A DNA stretch of 64,000 bases from Candidatus Poribacteria bacterium (GTDB taxonomy: Bacteria; Poribacteria; WGA-4E; WGA-3G), in NCBI GenBank assembly GCA_022822085.1, contig JAJECK010000130.1, forward strand, positions 1 to 64,000. Direction: 5' to 3'. Shown here one piece after another: positions 20,872 through 63,286 of the stretch; position 1 is the first letter of the stretch; the number at the start of each line of letters is the position of its first letter. Below the pieces are notes generated by a model. That model searched no databases. It was given only the letters and a program-made list of their open reading frames with translations, and was not told where the DNA came from. Position numbers and translations under genes: made by a program.

Positions 20872-21339
20872 TTATGATGATGGTTCTTGGTAAGATGATA
20901 TCTGTATGACATCATTCATGAGCAATTGCTGTGTGATGATCTCAACAACATCAGGATTCAACTTACCTGATAACCAATATTTTTTGCCTGTTCTAACTGT
21001 TGTGACACCCGTTATACCAATATCATGAATACCTTTGACTGTGCTATCACCTACAGCGTCGGTGACACCAGGTTTGAATTGAACTTCAATCGTCCAATCT
21101 TTATTAGGTTTACTTTCACTATCATAAGTATAGTTTTGTGTAATCGGATCAGCAAGGAGTTCAGTTGCAATACGATCAATAGATTGAGAATCAAGTTTTC
21201 CTTCAATCCAATAAACATTAGCAGTTCTAACAGAGTCAACACCACTGATACCCAGATCAGATATATCTTCAAGTATATCTTTCCCTATTGTATCAGGAAC
21301 TTCAGGTTTATAGAAAACTTCAACTTTCCAGAGTTTCAT
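20872..21339 (-). CDS. purS: Tandem PurS-like domain protein
   Basis: This 155-residue protein is two copies of one small ferredoxin-like domain: WKVEVFYKPEVPDTIGKDIL with GISGVDSVRTANVYWIEG, then WTIEVQFKPGVTDAVGDSTV with GITGVTTVRTGKKYWLSG. Both match PurS, the small subunit that bridges PurL and PurQ in formylglycinamide ribonucleotide amidotransferase (fourth step of purine synthesis). Bacterial PurS is usually a single 80-residue domain that dimerises; here the dimer appears fused, as in some PurL N-termini. No purL or purQ lies nearby, so the purine role is inferred. AAGGATAAG precedes the ATG. Confidence 0.68.
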   Translation of the reverse strand: MKLWKVEVFYKPEVPDTIGKDILEDISDLGISGVDSVRTANVYWIEGKLDSQSIDRIATELLADPITQNYTYDSESKPNKDWTIEVQFKPGVTDAVGDSTVKGIHDIGITGVTTVRTGKKYWLSGKLNPDVVEIITQQLLMNDVIQISSYQEPSS

Positions 21340-24657: not shown

Positions 24658-25380
24658 TTATGTCTCACTTTTTTCTATTTCGTTTTCATCTTGTGTGTCA
24701 GTATCTTCAGTTTTAACTTCTTCCTTAGGTTTGCCTTTAGATACGGTTACTTGTGCTGCCCGTAGGATCTGATCATGTAATTGATAACCACATCTAAACT
24801 CTTCAATCACATTGCCCTCTGGGATATCCTCGGATTCAGTTGCAAAAACGGCTTCATGTTGATTTGGATTGAAGGGGCCCCCAACTGCTTGAATTGTTGT
24901 AAGTCCATGAATTTTTAACAGGTCTAACAGTTGTTTTTGAACCAATTGAACACCTTCACTGAAGTGTTCTATATCTGCAATAGTTTCACTTTCATCATTT
25001 TTTTCTGAGATGCTCTTTATTGCTGCATTAAGACTATCTAATACTGGTATTATTCCTTCAATTATGTTTTTATTTGCATACTTAAGTTGCTTCTGTGCAT
25101 CAATTTCTAAACGCTTTTTTGAATTTTCTGCTTCAGCAGCAGTCCTGAGTAAGCGTTCACGTTCAGCTTGATACTGTTCTCGTTCAGACTCAGCAACTGC
25201 TTCAAGTTGTATTTTAAAGTCTTCCTTTAATGCCTCGAGTTCCGCTTCAACTGTTTCTATTGTTCGTTCATCTGTTTCATCAGATGCTTCCACATCTTCT
25301 TCAGATTCATCAATAAGAAAATCAGGTTTTTTGCTTTCTTCTGTTACTATTTCAATAATTTCCTCATTATTCTCAGGCAT
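24658..25380 (-). CDS. grpE: Nucleotide exchange factor GrpE
   Basis: A 240-residue GrpE with a long acidic N-terminal tail (residues 1-50), a heptad-rich coiled coil (EALKEDFKIQLEAVAESERE to about residue 100) and the C-terminal beta-domain with TTIQAVGGPFNPNQHEAV and GYQLHDQILRAAQVTVSKG, the family signature. GrpE dimers release ADP from DnaK. GAGAGGAAA precedes the ATG. The extended acidic N-terminus and a charged C-terminal tail make it longer than the roughly 200-residue E. coli protein. Directly upstream of dnaJ. Confidence 0.95.
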   Translation of the reverse strand: MPENNEEIIEIVTEESKKPDFLIDESEEDVEASDETDERTIETVEAELEALKEDFKIQLEAVAESEREQYQAERERLLRTAAEAENSKKRLEIDAQKQLKYANKNIIEGIIPVLDSLNAAIKSISEKNDESETIADIEHFSEGVQLVQKQLLDLLKIHGLTTIQAVGGPFNPNQHEAVFATESEDIPEGNVIEEFRCGYQLHDQILRAAQVTVSKGKPKEEVKTEDTDTQDENEIEKSET

Positions 25381-25448: not shown

Positions 25449-26195
25449 CTATCCATGCACAGCATCGGCAAACTGTTTCATAAGTTCATAGGAACAATTC
25501 TCTTCAAGAACGTTCCCCGTAACGATGAAATCTGCACCAGCATTTACTTTTTGAGCAGCTATTTCAGGGGAACGTATACCACCACCTACAATCAGAGGGA
25601 TTTCAATTTGTGAATTAACCTTTGATATCATATCATCAGGAACAGGAAGTTCTGCTCCACTCCCAGCTTCTAAATACACCATCTTCATCCCAAGGTACTG
25701 TGCAGCCAGAGCGTGTGTACCTGCAATATCAGGTTTATTTCGTGGGATAGGAACTGTGCCACTCATAAATTCAACTGTTGTTCTATTGCCTCCCTCAATT
25801 AACATATAACCCGTAGGGATCGGTTCCAGATTATACTGTTGAATCAAAGGGGCAGCTTTAACCTGTTCACCGATAAGATAATTTGGATTTCGTCCACTAA
25901 TTAAGGACATATATAGAACAGCATCTGCATGTGGCGTAAGATGCATTGAATCTCCTGGAAACAAGATGATGGGTAAAGATGTAGAGGCTTTCAAGTCTAT
26001 TGCAATGGGTTGTAGGTCTTTTGTCAAGAGACTCCCACCAAGCAAGATCGCATCAGCACCAGATCGCTCAATTTCACATGCAAGTTTAGCGCATTTCTCT
26101 ATCTCACATACATCGGGATCAATCAGAACAAGATAACCTGCCTTATGTTTTTCAATTATCTCATGTAGATATTTTATAACACTACTCAATGTCAA
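25449..26195 (-). CDS. Geranylgeranylglyceryl/heptaprenylglyceryl phosphate synthase (GGGPS/PcrB family)
   Basis: A 248-residue TIM-barrel prenyltransferase. Family landmarks: LVLIDPDVCE (Mg-binding Asp), AILLGGSLLTKD, GYMLIEGGNRTTVEFMSGT, MVYLEAGSGAELPVP and PLIVGGGIRSPEIA with GADFIVTGNVLEEN (phosphate binding). The enzyme forms the first ether bond between glycerol-1-phosphate and a polyprenyl diphosphate, the committed step of archaeal membrane lipids; in Bacillus the homologue PcrB makes heptaprenylglyceryl phosphate. The start is TTG (26193-26195) with AAGGGA 9 bases upstream. The UbiA-family gene at 28143 could catalyse the next step. Chain-length specificity cannot be judged. Confidence 0.9.
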   Translation of the reverse strand: MTLSSVIKYLHEIIEKHKAGYLVLIDPDVCEIEKCAKLACEIERSGADAILLGGSLLTKDLQPIAIDLKASTSLPIILFPGDSMHLTPHADAVLYMSLISGRNPNYLIGEQVKAAPLIQQYNLEPIPTGYMLIEGGNRTTVEFMSGTVPIPRNKPDIAGTHALAAQYLGMKMVYLEAGSGAELPVPDDMISKVNSQIEIPLIVGGGIRSPEIAAQKVNAGADFIVTGNVLEENCSYELMKQFADAVHG

Positions 26196-26454
26196 ATGTA
26201 CGTGTCCCTTATAATACTTATAACTACTTTCTTTAGAAACTTATAATCTGACGATGTAGACACAAAACAGAACAATTTTACCACCTTGTTACCAATTTGT
26301 CAAATTGAAGTTATTCTTGGGCAGGGGTGCGATGTTTGTGTCGCCCCGCTGAGGCTTGTTGACAATCCGAACATCTTTTCTATACACTTTTCGCATCTCT
26401 GGTGCTTGTAAAGATGCACAAACTTTATGAAGAATTAAAAAAATATGTCGGTCC
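26196..26454. other. Intergenic region before the nested palindrome
   Basis: These 259 bases between the GGGPS start and the palindrome island hold no ORF. Only an AT-rich stretch followed by a GC-rich patch near 26320-26355 is visible; together with the repeats to 26888 this makes the longest non-coding gap in the window. A promoter for the ggpps-grpE-dnaJ-prmA run is expected here, but no convincing boxes were recognised. Confidence 0.5.
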
Positions 26455-26755
26455 TTTCTTTAGTCCTGTCCGGACGCAATGTTTATAGGAAAACGTGTCT
26501 CGCCCCTGTTTAGTCCCGTTCAGACGATATGGGTCTGCCCCTCAACAAACTATAAACATATCGTCCCTAATGAAGATTAAGAATTTAATCGGGTAATGTG
26601 GCGAGGTTAGGAAACCTCGCCAGCAGTAGTACAACTGTCCTCCCCAGAAGAAAAATCACCCAATTAATAAGTTAATCTTCATACGGGACTAAAGAGGCAG
26701 TAGACAAACGTTTTTCTATAAACATTGCGTCACTACGGGACTGAAGAACTAAACT
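26455..26755. repeat. Nested imperfect inverted-repeat island
   Basis: The two halves are imperfect reverse complements. Perfectly matching segments are 26473-26488 with 26716-26731 (16 bases) and 26571-26580 with 26672-26681 (10 bases). At the centre is a perfect 9-base-pair stem with a 4-base loop (26600-26608 and 26613-26621). The left half contains another hairpin, GACGATATG (26523-26531) with CATATCGTC (26558-26566). No coding potential. It could be a decayed mobile element, a structured RNA or a double terminator. Confidence 0.7.
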
Positions 26756-26781
26756 CAAAATCCTTAAGTTGACACCTATGG

Positions 26782-26886
26782 GTAGAAGCACGAGCCCCGA
26801 AAGGATAACCACAATCAATACAAGGCGGGGTTCGTGCCTATACCAGACAGACGAAAAAGGGTTCATTATAAAGTAGAAATGGTATT
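26782..26886. repeat. Dispersed 'ATACCATTTCTAC' element, copy 1 (inverted)
   Basis: The segment 26832-26886, read on the minus strand, matches 63139-63193 at about 50 of 55 positions. An internal imperfect palindrome (26782-26799 with 26826-26843) has the same layout as in the copy at 63 kb. The element abuts the stop codon of the methyltransferase gene, so it may double as its terminator. No protein is encoded. Confidence 0.7.
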
Positions 26887-26888
26887 AT

Positions 26889-28106
26889 TTATTCATACTT
26901 AATCGTATTTCTCACAATTTCATAAAGTAAAATACCTGATGCAACACCGACATTTAGAGAAGATTGTCCAGAAGCCATTGGAATACGGATCAATTGAGAA
27001 CACCGTTCACGAGTTTCCACAGATAATCCACTATTTTCGTTTCCAACGATAATTGCTGTATTGTTTGATAAATTCACATTATGGATATCAATGTCCCCAC
27101 TTGCTGTTGCACCAATTACATCCCATCCTGACCTTTTGAGTTGATCAATTGCCATATTCGTATCTGAAGTATAGAACATAGGTAAACGACCAACTGCCCC
27201 GCGCGATGCCCTTATAGTGTTCTTATGAAATGGACTCGCACCATCACCGCATATTAAAACGCCAGATATTCCTAATGCATCAGCAGTGCGAAATATCATA
27301 CCAAGGTTATCAGGATTACTTACATTTTCTGTGATAAGGACGTTGCAGGTTTTGTTATAATGAAAATTGAGTTCTCCAGATTCAGTTAGAAAATTAGGAT
27401 AGTTTAAATGTATCGTTGTGATTATTGTAGGTACTGGTCTTGTTGTAGTAACAGAACCCATTAAACCATCGTTGACGAGATAGCAGGATATATTTTCCTG
27501 AACGGCTTCATCTAAAAACGTTCGGCTTTCAGAATTTGATAAAAAGTTTGCTGTATATAGAATCGCATCAATAGGGTGACCATCAGTAACTGCTCTTTTC
27601 ACCAACATTTCATTTTCTACAACAAATTCTGAATGTTCAATTTTTCCCTTTATAGATGCTATCTGACGGATATGGGCTGCGATTTCATCTTTTCTTTTTG
27701 TTATGGTTCGTTGTTCAGCATCTGTATCACTACCCCGTTTAACACCACGAAAATAATTTATTGATTCAGTCTGTATCGATTCACCTACAAACATATCTTG
27801 TATTCGATTTTCTATCCACTTTTCAAAGATATGAAACATTCCAACCTTTTGTCTTGGAAATGCCAGGAGTAGTTCCCTCACACTGCGTTCTGTAGTTGCG
27901 ATGAGATAAACGAAATAGTCAGAATTGTATGAAGGGTCCGGTTGCATCAGCATTACACCATCAAAATTATGCCATCCTGAAGAATATAACACACATTCTG
28001 GTCGCAATTCTCTCGTGTTAGTAAATGCCTGTTTATATTGGTCTATCACCTTGCTTTCAACGTTTACATATTCCAAAAAGGACATCAGTTTATCGTAGTT
28101 AATCAC
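26889..28106 (-). CDS. SpoU/TrmH-family RNA 2'-O-methyltransferase with an extra N-terminal domain
   Basis: The C-terminal half of this 405-residue protein is a SpoU methyltransferase with the trefoil knot: VLITENVSNPDNLGMIFRTA (motif 1), IIVGNENSGLS (motif 2) and IPMASGQSSLNVGVASGIL (motif 3). Residues about 150-235 look like the L30e-like RNA-binding domain that often precedes it. The first roughly 130 residues are not part of the usual enzyme; FPRQKVGMFHIFEKWIENRI faintly recalls an acetyltransferase-like fold, but this is uncertain. The target may be the ribose of a tRNA or rRNA nucleotide. It lies between two putative ether-lipid genes, though it has no obvious link to them. Confidence 0.88.
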   Translation of the reverse strand: MINYDKLMSFLEYVNVESKVIDQYKQAFTNTRELRPECVLYSSGWHNFDGVMLMQPDPSYNSDYFVYLIATTERSVRELLLAFPRQKVGMFHIFEKWIENRIQDMFVGESIQTESINYFRGVKRGSDTDAEQRTITKRKDEIAAHIRQIASIKGKIEHSEFVVENEMLVKRAVTDGHPIDAILYTANFLSNSESRTFLDEAVQENISCYLVNDGLMGSVTTTRPVPTIITTIHLNYPNFLTESGELNFHYNKTCNVLITENVSNPDNLGMIFRTADALGISGVLICGDGASPFHKNTIRASRGAVGRLPMFYTSDTNMAIDQLKRSGWDVIGATASGDIDIHNVNLSNNTAIIVGNENSGLSVETRERCSQLIRIPMASGQSSLNVGVASGILLYEIVRNTIKYE

Positions 28107-28142
28107 TGGTATATTTAGTATAGCAAAAATAAGATGCCAGAC

Positions 28143-28997
28143 TTACCTTTGAAATATTGTTCCCATGTATATTGCTGCTAATCCCACGAATATATCCCAT
28201 TTCATACAACGTTGAATGAATGCACAACTTGATTTGGACATATCTCTCCAAAGTTGAAATCCTAACAAGATGAGTATAATGTTGACACCACACATAATTG
28301 TAACTAAATAATGCCAAGTATACCAGCCGAATATATAGGGAACAGGACTGAATAATATAACTGCCAACATAAAACTTAAGGTTAAAAGAACTGCAAATTT
28401 TGGATTAAGAGTTGCGAGTGTATTGACTTGATTCTTGATGTCTCCTTCTGAATCTTCAAGATCTTTTACAATTTCCCTTGCGGTTGTGAAAAGAAAGGCA
28501 AAAATTCCAGGTATTAATGTCCCGTGGATTGAACCGATTGCTACGCCTCCTGAGATAAATGTTATAGCAGTTAAGCAACCGACAGTTAGATTACCGATAA
28601 AAGGTGTCCGCTTTAACCAGAAGGCATAGCAGATAAGTAATCCAGAAACAAGAACAGCAATACACAACGCATATATATTAATTAGTATTCCCAGAACAAT
28701 AGAGAATCCAATTAAGACATAAGCATAGACCAACGCATTTCGACGCAGTATCTGTCCGGATGGAATGGGACGATTTGGTTTATTGATTAGATCAATATTA
28801 TAATCACAATAATCGTTAATTGCATTTCCAGCAGACAACATCAGAAGTGCAGCGGTTGAGACATAGATTAATTTCACATCTGAGATTATTTCAATTTCCC
28901 CACCTGATGCAAACAAACCTCCCATCATTGCTGAAATAAAGGCGATTATACCATTAAGTGGACGGGAAAGCTGCACATAAGCAGATAACGATTTCAT
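28143..28997 (-). CDS. UbiA-family prenyltransferase, likely digeranylgeranylglyceryl phosphate synthase type
   Basis: A 284-residue integral membrane protein with eight or nine hydrophobic helices and both prenyl-diphosphate sites: NDYCDYNIDLINKPNRPIPS (NDxxDxxxD, residues about 61-80) and REIVKDLEDSEGD. The KPNRPIPSG extension is characteristic of the archaeal (S)-2,3-di-O-geranylgeranylglyceryl phosphate synthase and the related chlorophyll-synthase branch. That enzyme adds the second prenyl chain to the product of GGGPS, whose gene is about 2 kb downstream on the same strand. A role in quinone or other prenyl-lipid synthesis remains an alternative, since UbiA specificity is hard to read from sequence. 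Confidence 0.85.
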   Translation of the reverse strand: MKSLSAYVQLSRPLNGIIAFISAMMGGLFASGGEIEIISDVKLIYVSTAALLMLSAGNAINDYCDYNIDLINKPNRPIPSGQILRRNALVYAYVLIGFSIVLGILINIYALCIAVLVSGLLICYAFWLKRTPFIGNLTVGCLTAITFISGGVAIGSIHGTLIPGIFAFLFTTAREIVKDLEDSEGDIKNQVNTLATLNPKFAVLLTLSFMLAVILFSPVPYIFGWYTWHYLVTIMCGVNIILILLGFQLWRDMSKSSCAFIQRCMKWDIFVGLAAIYMGTIFQR

Positions 28998-29088: not shown

Positions 29089-30147
29089 TTACGATTTTTT
29101 TTCTGGTTCTTGTAGTTTTGCTTCAAGTTCATTCACACGTTTCTGTAGTTCTGTAAACTTCTGTAGTATATCGGGTATTTTTCTGATATATGCTTGAGAC
29201 CGCAATTCCTGTTTATGGGGTCTTGCAGGAATACCCGAGAGTTGACTTCCCGGTGGCATATCCTTTGTAACTGCTGACTTTGAATATATCACACTGTTTT
29301 CACCGAGTGTGAGATGTCCTACCACACCAGATTGTCCTGCAATATTTACACGATCTCCGAGTGTGGTGCTACCAGCAATACCTGATTGTGCAGCTAAGCA
29401 GCAATCTTTCCCAATCACTACATTGTGGGCAATTTGAACCAGGTTGTCAAGTTTAGTTCCACTTTTGATAAGTGTTTCGGATAATGTGGCTCTATCAATT
29501 GTCGTATTGGCACCAATTTCAACATCGTCTTCAATCACAACTGTACCGATTTGTGGTATTTTATAAGGGCGATGGTTCTTAGGATCAGGAGTGAAACCGA
29601 ACCCATCACTACCAATGACCGCTCCACAATGTATAATTACACGATCTCCAATCGCCACATTTTCACGTATATTCACATTTGAATAGATCAAACCGTCTTT
29701 ACCGATTTTTGATCCATCACCTATATATACAAGTGGCATGATTACCGTATCATTACCGATTTCAACATTATCACCAATTACGCTATGTGCTTGAATTGTA
29801 ACTCTCTCACCAATTGAGACATTGTTACCAATAATTGCAGTTTCATGAATTCCTGATTCTGTCTGTTCACCGATACCCCAAGAAAACAACTCCAATGCTT
29901 GAACAAAACCCCAATATGGGTTATCAACACTTATTGTAGCTTTTCCGTTTCCGGATACACCCCTTCCAATGATTATTGCAGATGCTTGTGTTGTTGCTAT
30001 AGCTGCAAGATATTTTGTATTGGCAACGAAAGTTATTTGATTTGGTACCGCCTCATTAATACCAGAAACACCTGTGATTTCTATGTCGCCATCCCCGGAA
30101 AGTTCTCCACCCAGATGTTCACAAATATCTTTGAGTTTTATACTCAT
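29089..30147 (-). CDS. lpxD: UDP-3-O-acylglucosamine N-acyltransferase LpxD
   Basis: A 352-residue LpxD that adds the second acyl chain in lipid A synthesis. The N-terminal domain (SIKLKDICEHLGGELSGDGD, then INEAVPNQITFVANTKYL) is followed by left-handed beta-helix hexapeptide repeats from about residue 105 (IGNNVSIGERVTIQAHSVIG). The catalytic His lies in LVQIAHNVVIG, and a C-terminal helix (residues 325-350) is coiled-coil-like. I prefer the ATG at 30147, which has GAGGGA upstream; an ATG 12 bases earlier overlaps that site. It follows skp and bamA in the conserved bamA-skp-lpxD order. Confidence 0.95.
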   Translation of the reverse strand: MSIKLKDICEHLGGELSGDGDIEITGVSGINEAVPNQITFVANTKYLAAIATTQASAIIIGRGVSGNGKATISVDNPYWGFVQALELFSWGIGEQTESGIHETAIIGNNVSIGERVTIQAHSVIGDNVEIGNDTVIMPLVYIGDGSKIGKDGLIYSNVNIRENVAIGDRVIIHCGAVIGSDGFGFTPDPKNHRPYKIPQIGTVVIEDDVEIGANTTIDRATLSETLIKSGTKLDNLVQIAHNVVIGKDCCLAAQSGIAGSTTLGDRVNIAGQSGVVGHLTLGENSVIYSKSAVTKDMPPGSQLSGIPARPHKQELRSQAYIRKIPDILQKFTELQKRVNELEAKLQEPEKKS

Positions 30148-30255
30148 AAATTCCCTCATTTATGCGACTTCACGGGTTATCATACAATAGTATGCAGTTG
30201 AATACCAATGAACAAAGTGTGTTTCCAACTAAATGAAATGTAAATCACTATTCTG

Positions 30256-63130: not shown

Positions 63131-63139
63131 AATGACCTA

Positions 63140-63286
63140 ATACCATTTCTACTTTATAATGGCCCCTTTTTCGTCCGTCGGGTATAGGGACGACCCCTGC
63201 CCTGATAAACACACTCAATACAGGGAGGGTTTCGTGCCTCTACCCGACGGACGGAAGAATGGTCCAAAAATAATTAGAATTGGTAT
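63140..63286. repeat. Dispersed 147 bp MITE-like element (ATACCATTTCTAC copy 2)
   Basis: The outer ends are near-perfect inverted repeats of 12 bases (63140-63151 and 63275-63286, one mismatch). A perfect 13-base inner pair, CGTCCGTCGGGTA, lies at 63172-63184 and 63241-63253. The left third matches copy 1 at 26832-26886 on the other strand. It encodes no protein and lies 33 bases before the next gene's start codon, so it may affect that gene's expression. Confidence 0.75.

Follow-up and report, generated by a model that had tools for sequence, protein, structure and literature searches.

The combination of geranylgeranylglyceryl phosphate synthase (GGGPS) and DGGGP synthase (DGGGPS) is already known from bacteria of the FCB group (PMC7852524, PMC6431249), as an earlier note on the DNA studied here had pointed out. 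In E. coli, the GGGPS and DGGGPS of Cloacimonadota give an unsaturated archaeol-PG (Villanueva et al., PMC7852524). Metagenome-assembled genomes of Candidatus Cloacimonetes resemble Poribacteria in carrying GGGPS, DGGGPS and a euryarchaeal-like geranylgeranyl reductase (GGR), with no G1P dehydrogenase (G1PDH) or CarS found (Villanueva et al., PMC7852524). The Cloacimonetes and FCB proteins also fall in the same clades as the proteins described below in both the GGGPS and the UbiA tree (PMC7852524; Coleman et al., PMC6431249). Unlike these reports, in Poribacteria UbiA, ferredoxin, GGR and GGGPS genes occur in one cluster, one order has a UGA within the GGR gene, and GGR has been lost in the lineage studied here. 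The main text of PMC7852524 does not mention Poribacteria, and PMC6431249 was not among the matches of a literature search on Poribacteria jointly with geranylgeranylglyceryl.

Two further systems are relevant. Methanosarcina has a pair of geranylgeranyl reductase and ferredoxin (Isobe et al., 2014, as summarized in PMC7852524), and in Poribacteria a ferredoxin gene likewise lies directly upstream of GGR. Compared with that summary, the poribacterial ferredoxin and GGR genes differ in being linked to UbiA and GGGPS, and in the predicted replacement of Cys by selenocysteine (Sec) in one order. The heptaprenylglyceryl phosphate synthase PcrB of Bacillus belongs to the same TIM-barrel family (PF01884) as GGGPS, but the PcrB pathway includes no UbiA for a second chain.

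Here we analyze a stretch of 64,000 nucleotides from Candidatus Poribacteria (the window). We consider it probable, at roughly 0.78, that the window preserves what is left of an archaeal-type ether-lipid cluster occurring across the phylum and that this cluster encodes diether-lipid synthesis.

Organization of the locus

The two putative lipid genes and their surroundings are as follows.

24658–25380, minus strand: GrpE, next gene downstream of GGGPS (profile and neighbourhood comparison)
25449–26195, minus strand: GGGPS, group II, TTG start, 248 amino acids (profiles, PDB matches, conserved columns, dN/dS)
26275–26303, minus strand: promoter-like element TTGACA-N17-TAAAAT (11/12) upstream of GGGPS (sequence comparison)
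26320–26888, no strand: non-coding gap with dispersed palindromic repeats, at the site of ferredoxin and GGR in relatives
26889–28106, minus strand: SpoU-type rRNA methyltransferase, located between GGGPS and UbiA (profiles; position conserved in the family)
28143–28997, minus strand: UbiA-superfamily prenyltransferase, DGGGP-synthase type, 284 amino acids, motifs NDYCDYNID and KDLEDSEGD (profiles, PDB, tree, columns, dN/dS)
29089–30159, minus strand: LpxD, a lipid A acyltransferase, encoded immediately upstream of UbiA (profiles and neighbourhood)

Both lipid ORFs lie on one strand, as the earlier note had described. They are not adjacent, being separated by the SpoU methyltransferase, which is probably a bystander, and by roughly 690 bp of non-coding DNA rich in repeats. 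The gene order GGGPS-grpE-dnaJ-prmA is conserved in the family, and the TTG start of GGGPS and the region upstream of it are conserved in relatives. Six further genomes of the genus keep the putative promoter element, although the sequence flanking it drifts. Upstream of UbiA, the LpxD, OmpH/Skp and BamA-type Omp85 genes account for the outer-membrane machinery that had been noticed in this segment. LpxD indicates that the cell also makes fatty-acyl outer-membrane lipid.

The GGGPS protein

The protein encoded at 25449–26195 scored 230.6 bits against TIGR01769, the GGGP equivalog model with a curated cut-off of 161.55, and 165.9 bits against PF01884, whereas the heptaprenylglyceryl model NF003197 gave only 31.7 bits. 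Its best PDB matches, 4jej and 4mm1, are both GGGPS (196 and 189 bits). All 43 columns conserved in 20 references, covering active-site and phosphate-binding positions such as D26, AGSGA, GGGI and G227, are retained, and dN/dS is 0.04–0.09, which indicates purifying selection. In a tree built without PcrB and MoeO5, both of which score far lower for the window protein, it groups in a bacterial clade (support 100/100) with Cloacimonadota, Zixibacteria, Marinimicrobia and Flavobacterium, a clade that connects to the group II GGGPS of archaea. With the clade fully supported and every conserved column kept, the proposed GGGPS homologue stands, and we assign the gene as a group II GGGPS.

Distribution in the phylum and missing steps

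GGGPS is present in 73 and the UbiA orthologue in 74 of 85 Poribacteria genomes. The two genes occur together in 72 genomes, both are missing from 10 and only 3 genomes are discordant; these counts are not phylogenetically independent and correspond to about 3–4 separate joint losses. In relatives of the window's genome, the cluster is fuller, with the order UbiA-[SpoU]-ferredoxin-GGR-GGGPS, and the GGR is about 48% identical to proteins of Methanosarcinales.

The genome from which the window comes is 96.5% complete. The earlier note had proposed searching it for glycerol-1-phosphate dehydrogenase and geranylgeranyl reductase, and neither was found. For GGR, the best match in this genome reached 125.9 bits, below the cut-off of 158.8, and it is a halogenase-like FAD protein. 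A tblastn search of the gap at 26196–26888 with the GGRs of relatives gave nothing above noise, the gap containing dispersed palindromic repeats. By comparison with the relatives, which kept them, ferredoxin and GGR are lost from this genome. No G1PDH (EgsA/AraM) was recognized in it, with none at E ≤ 1e-12; to judge from their sequences, its PF13685 matches comprise three proteins of iron alcohol dehydrogenase type and one of dehydroquinate synthase type. Divergent G1PDH-like proteins do occur in genus g4 and family f5 of the phylum. CarS was not found in the genome either, the sole match being a CdsA-like protein adjoining Dxr. Of two polyprenyl diphosphate synthases, one is nearest to short-chain/GGPP models and the other is long-chain-like. 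With no G1PDH, GGR or CarS found, the ether-lipid pathway appears partial in this genome, which, also lacking the ferredoxin, would yield at most unsaturated ether lipids.

These missing steps could also mean that the two enzymes yield a minor prenylglycerol instead of a membrane phospholipid, either a one-chain compound or a side metabolite like the heptaprenylglyceryl derivatives of Bacillus. The long-chain-like polyprenyl synthase would suit such a role, and Bacillus PcrB indeed makes a one-chain C35 product (PMC9179154). We nevertheless regard this explanation as unlikely, since the UbiA for the second step occurs, and is lost, together with GGGPS, relatives keep ferredoxin and GGR in the cluster, and the GGGPS scores favour the archaeal-type model over the heptaprenylglyceryl one.

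The UbiA protein

The protein encoded at 28143–28997 matched PF01040 with 141.6 bits. The best curated models were the archaeal prenyltransferase PRK12884 (215 bits, cut-off 269) and the GGGP geranylgeranyltransferase PRK12882 (213 bits, cut-off 296), and a further curated DGGGPS model gave 166 bits (cut-off 353), so that all scores stayed below the cut-offs. Sequences of Cloacimonadota, a group with proven activity, likewise score below 296 bits; the DGGGPS cut-offs thus exclude bacterial members, and we use the label DGGGPS-type, not that of a formal equivalog. The best PDB match was the DGGGP synthase of M. jannaschii (6m31, 131 bits), compared with 38 bits for chlorophyll synthase. Both Asp-rich motifs are present, 20 of 21 conserved columns are kept and dN/dS is 0.06–0.14, again a sign of purifying selection. 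In the tree, the protein falls in a DGGGPS clade (99/98) with archaeal and FCB DGGGP synthases, not with quinone prenyltransferases, and the genome's menaquinone UbiA lies far outside. The earlier note had read the KPNRPIPSG extension as a mark of archaeal DGGGP synthases. The DGGGPS-type assignment is borne out by these comparisons, but the motif alone is not diagnostic, as chlorophyll synthase has NEPYRPIPSG.

The low model scores leave some room for an enzyme that prenylates an aromatic compound, quinone-like or a secondary metabolite, and lies near GGGPS by chance. UbiA proteins are versatile, and one flavobacterial enzyme of UbiA-like type is known to prenylate quinolines (PMC9235831). 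The tree position, the structural matches and the co-loss with GGGPS make this very unlikely, and the other two UbiA proteins of the genome match MqnP/UbiA-like (menaquinone) and heme O synthase (CyoE) models. The separate MqnP-like gene also led us to reject a role as the menaquinone enzyme.

Archaea are common sponge symbionts, and this, together with the absence of a recognizable G1PDH from the window's genome, would fit enzymes that run backwards and degrade archaeal lipids from the surroundings. Such a role has been suggested generally for FCB bacteria (PMC6431249), but is hardly credible here, since ferredoxin and a chain-saturating GGR in the same chromosomal cluster fit synthesis, not breakdown.

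A candidate selenocysteine-containing GGR in relatives

In the order to which the window belongs, the GGR gene has one in-frame UGA exactly at the Cys that is essential in archaeal GGR. This UGA type was found in 15 genomes and in one contig-end fragment, whereas the homologues of 8 other Poribacteria and all 77 GGRs from outside the phylum have Cys in this column; the GGR tree points to a single Cys-to-Sec change. A SECIS-like hairpin with a stem of up to 7 bp begins 13 nt past the UGA. It is 96.9% paired in UGA types against 28.6% in Cys types, being absent from the Cys homologues, and pairing with covariation at the level of the UGA types was reached in 0 of 500 shuffles. Downstream of the UGA, dN/dS is 0.03 (three pairs compared). 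An assembly error or pseudogene was ruled out for 13 full-length copies, which come from different species and show purifying selection past the UGA. The GGRs of G069 (extra TAG) and G035 (frameshift) look broken or misassembled. With the exception of G024, which is 80% complete, every UGA-type genome has a tRNA-Sec scoring above the cut-off, and in the window's genome a SelB-like ORF adjoins the tRNA-Sec.

The GGR of the relatives is therefore a candidate for a new selenoprotein family, with Sec insertion predicted. It shares with known bacterial selenoprotein families (PMC13188914, 2026) a Cys-to-Sec change at a redox Cys, a SECIS-like hairpin just past the UGA, and a tRNA-Sec and SelB-like gene in the genome. 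We found no earlier report of a Sec-type GGR in the literature searched: the main text of the selenoprotein review PMC13188914 contains no geranylgeranyl or prenyl reductase, and the other selenoproteome papers searched do not mention geranylgeranyl. The role of the essential GGR Cys in electron transfer or flavin reactivity is still speculative (PMC10821996).

Proposed pathway and implications

In the pathway that we infer from these genes, GGGPS would join a C20 prenyl diphosphate to a hydroxyl of glycerol-1-phosphate, or less efficiently of glycerol-3-phosphate, and UbiA would add the second chain to give DGGGP. Ordinary CdsA and head-group enzymes could then turn DGGGP into phospholipids beside normal fatty-acyl lipids. 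In relatives with the whole cluster, saturation of the chains would fall to GGR, supplied by the ferredoxin encoded next to it; within the window's order, Sec is predicted in place of the essential Cys of this reductase. Since ferredoxin and reductase are lost from the window's genome, its product should be unsaturated. On balance, we lean slightly towards the complete proposal that Poribacteria make archaeal-type diether lipids with chains saturated by a Sec-dependent GGR of an undescribed selenoprotein family, the lipid of the window's lineage, which lacks the reductase, being unsaturated.

Membrane lipids of mixed type, which the earlier note considered possible, may occur in these bacteria, although the window's own genome yielded no G1PDH, GGR or CarS. 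The cluster would widen the potential for mixed archaeal/bacterial membranes to an entire phylum of uncultured bacteria, marine and sponge-associated. Functional evidence for this potential comes from the linkage of the genes and their joint loss. The candidate selenoenzyme, in which Sec would replace the essential Cys of a lipid-saturating flavoenzyme, may offer a direct handle on the role of this residue.

Identity of the two genes

Both open reading frames that the earlier note had read as an archaeal-type ether-lipid pair lie exactly at the coordinates it gave, on the minus strand:

25449-26195, minus strand: geranylgeranylglyceryl phosphate synthase (GGGPS), matching TIGR01769, with PDB entries 4jej and 4mm1 nearest
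28143-28997, minus strand: UbiA-family prenyltransferase, with 6m31 as nearest solved structure

The first product scored 230.6 bits against TIGR01769 (phosphoglycerol geranylgeranyltransferase equivalog; cut-off 161.55), its nearest PDB entries are themselves GGGPS, and it retains 43 of 43 columns conserved among GGGPS references. The UbiA protein retains 20 of 21 conserved columns and is closest to the DGGGP synthase (DGGGPS) of M. jannaschii (131 bits), followed by chlorophyll synthase (38). It scores under the curated cut-offs of archaeal DGGGPS models, as do its bacterial relatives from Cloacimonadota. The string KPNRPIPSG, proposed earlier as a mark of DGGGPS, is present but partly common to chlorophyll synthases, and so is not proof alone.

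The GGGPS tree places every bacterial sequence, whether from Poribacteria, Cloacimonadota, Zixibacteria, Marinimicrobia or Flavobacterium, in a single clade with full support, and this clade is joined to archaeal group II. In the tree of UbiA proteins, those of Poribacteria cluster with the FCB sequences within the DGGGPS clade; the MqnP-like UbiA of the window's genome lies outside it. Together with the PDB matches and conserved columns, this phylogeny, which the earlier note had proposed as a check, bears out its identification of the pair; the note was cautious on function and right on identity. Elsewhere in the window, 20872-21339 (minus strand) encodes a 155-residue protein that carries two tandem PurS-domain stretches.

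Distribution and gene cluster

The window comes from contig 25 of a Candidatus Poribacteria genome of 5.63 Mb that is 96.5% complete. Among the 85 genomes of the phylum set, GGGPS is present in 73 and the UbiA orthologue in 74, i.e., 72 have both, 10 neither and 3 a single gene (Fisher value 2e-10, ignoring kinship among genomes). Because the joint absences are clustered (G018-G022, one genus; G044; G070/G071; some less complete genomes), the joint losses are estimated at about three to four independent events. The functional case for the pair gains strength from the phylum-wide cluster and from these shared losses.

In many relatives a geranylgeranyl reductase (GGR) lies between UbiA and GGGPS with a ferredoxin directly upstream, and genome G023 (locus L105) has UbiA, ferredoxin, GGR and GGGPS in tandem within about 3.1 kb. 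Methanosarcinales and other archaea have the same ferredoxin-GGR pair. GGR exceeded the curated cut-off in 23 of the 85 genomes. The window retains the order UbiA-SpoU-GGGPS-grpE-dnaJ-prmA, with ferredoxin and GGR absent at the cluster site. Low dN/dS within the genus (GGGPS 0.04-0.09; UbiA 0.06-0.14) indicates that both genes are under selection, though the reductase is gone. Sequence comparison revealed a conserved TTGACA-N17-TAAAAT upstream of GGGPS. Dispersed palindromic repeats occur at 26320-26888 and 63138-63286, in another contig of the genome (L096) and in other Poribacteria (L074, L252, L253).

Other pathway steps

The genome search suggested in the earlier note, for glycerol-1-phosphate (G1P) dehydrogenase and GGR, found neither in the window's genome, GGR having been sought beyond the cluster as well; CarS was likewise looked for there and not found. 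Going by precedent, G1P dehydrogenase and CarS need not be present: CarS and egsA/araM are missing from the Cloacimonadota MAGs too, CdsA can stand in for CarS, and G1P is formed in E. coli by a route that is not known (PMC7852524). Divergent G1P dehydrogenase-like loci occur in genus g4 (L246, L247) and family f5 (L242, L243). Of the loci scanned, L242 (genome G004, 204 bits) and L247 (G054, 136 bits) have G1P dehydrogenase as best curated match, below its cut-off of 413; such proteins may supply some Poribacteria with G1P. Of 29 Poribacteria MAGs from a euxinic marine system, 10 were reported to carry homologues of tetraether synthase (Tes) (PMC11868695).

A candidate selenocysteine GGR in relatives

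Loci L060-L067, L078-L084 and L089, in relatives and outside the window: candidate selenocysteine (Sec) GGR genes, with UGA at the essential Cys column and a SECIS-like hairpin

In the window's order, GGR genes carry one in-frame TGA, at U in EKRQEIGxPVR[U]AE. This column is Cys in 8 other Poribacteria and in every one of the 77 GGRs read from outside the phylum, and aligns with Cys of the T. acidophilum and S. acidocaldarius enzymes; Cys47 of the latter is reported to be essential for catalysis and conserved among archaeal GGRs (PMC10821996). Each of the 15 UGA-type genes with enough sequence folds a short hairpin that begins 13 nt 3' of the UGA. In 12 of them the stem is 7 bp long and the loop 3 nt; in G023, G025 and G026 the loop is larger or the apical pairs do not close. 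Cys-type genes have no such hairpin. In an alignment of 14 UGA-type genes, 96.9% of cells pair, against 28.6% in Cys types, and none of 500 shuffles, nor any slid version, reached the same covariation. The covariation supports a SECIS element, short of proof because part of it is shared by descent.

One Cys/Sec change suffices in the GGR tree, and dN/dS is 0.03 over the 351 codons 3' of the UGA (three pairs). tRNA-Sec was found throughout the order, including the window's genome, where a SelB-like ORF adjoins it. Two GGRs, L084 (G069; extra in-frame TAG) and L089 (G035; frameshift), are either decaying genes or assembly errors; most members of their family have lost GGR. The full-text literature searched, whose coverage excludes many subscription papers, yielded no paper that links GGR with selenoproteins in this sense, and a 2026 review makes no mention of it.

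Taken alone, the pair is a known phenomenon in another phylum, Poribacteria: each of the 12 FCB phyla surveyed by Coleman et al. had both genes (PMC6431249). The new element is the Sec-GGR predicted from the sequences of the relatives.
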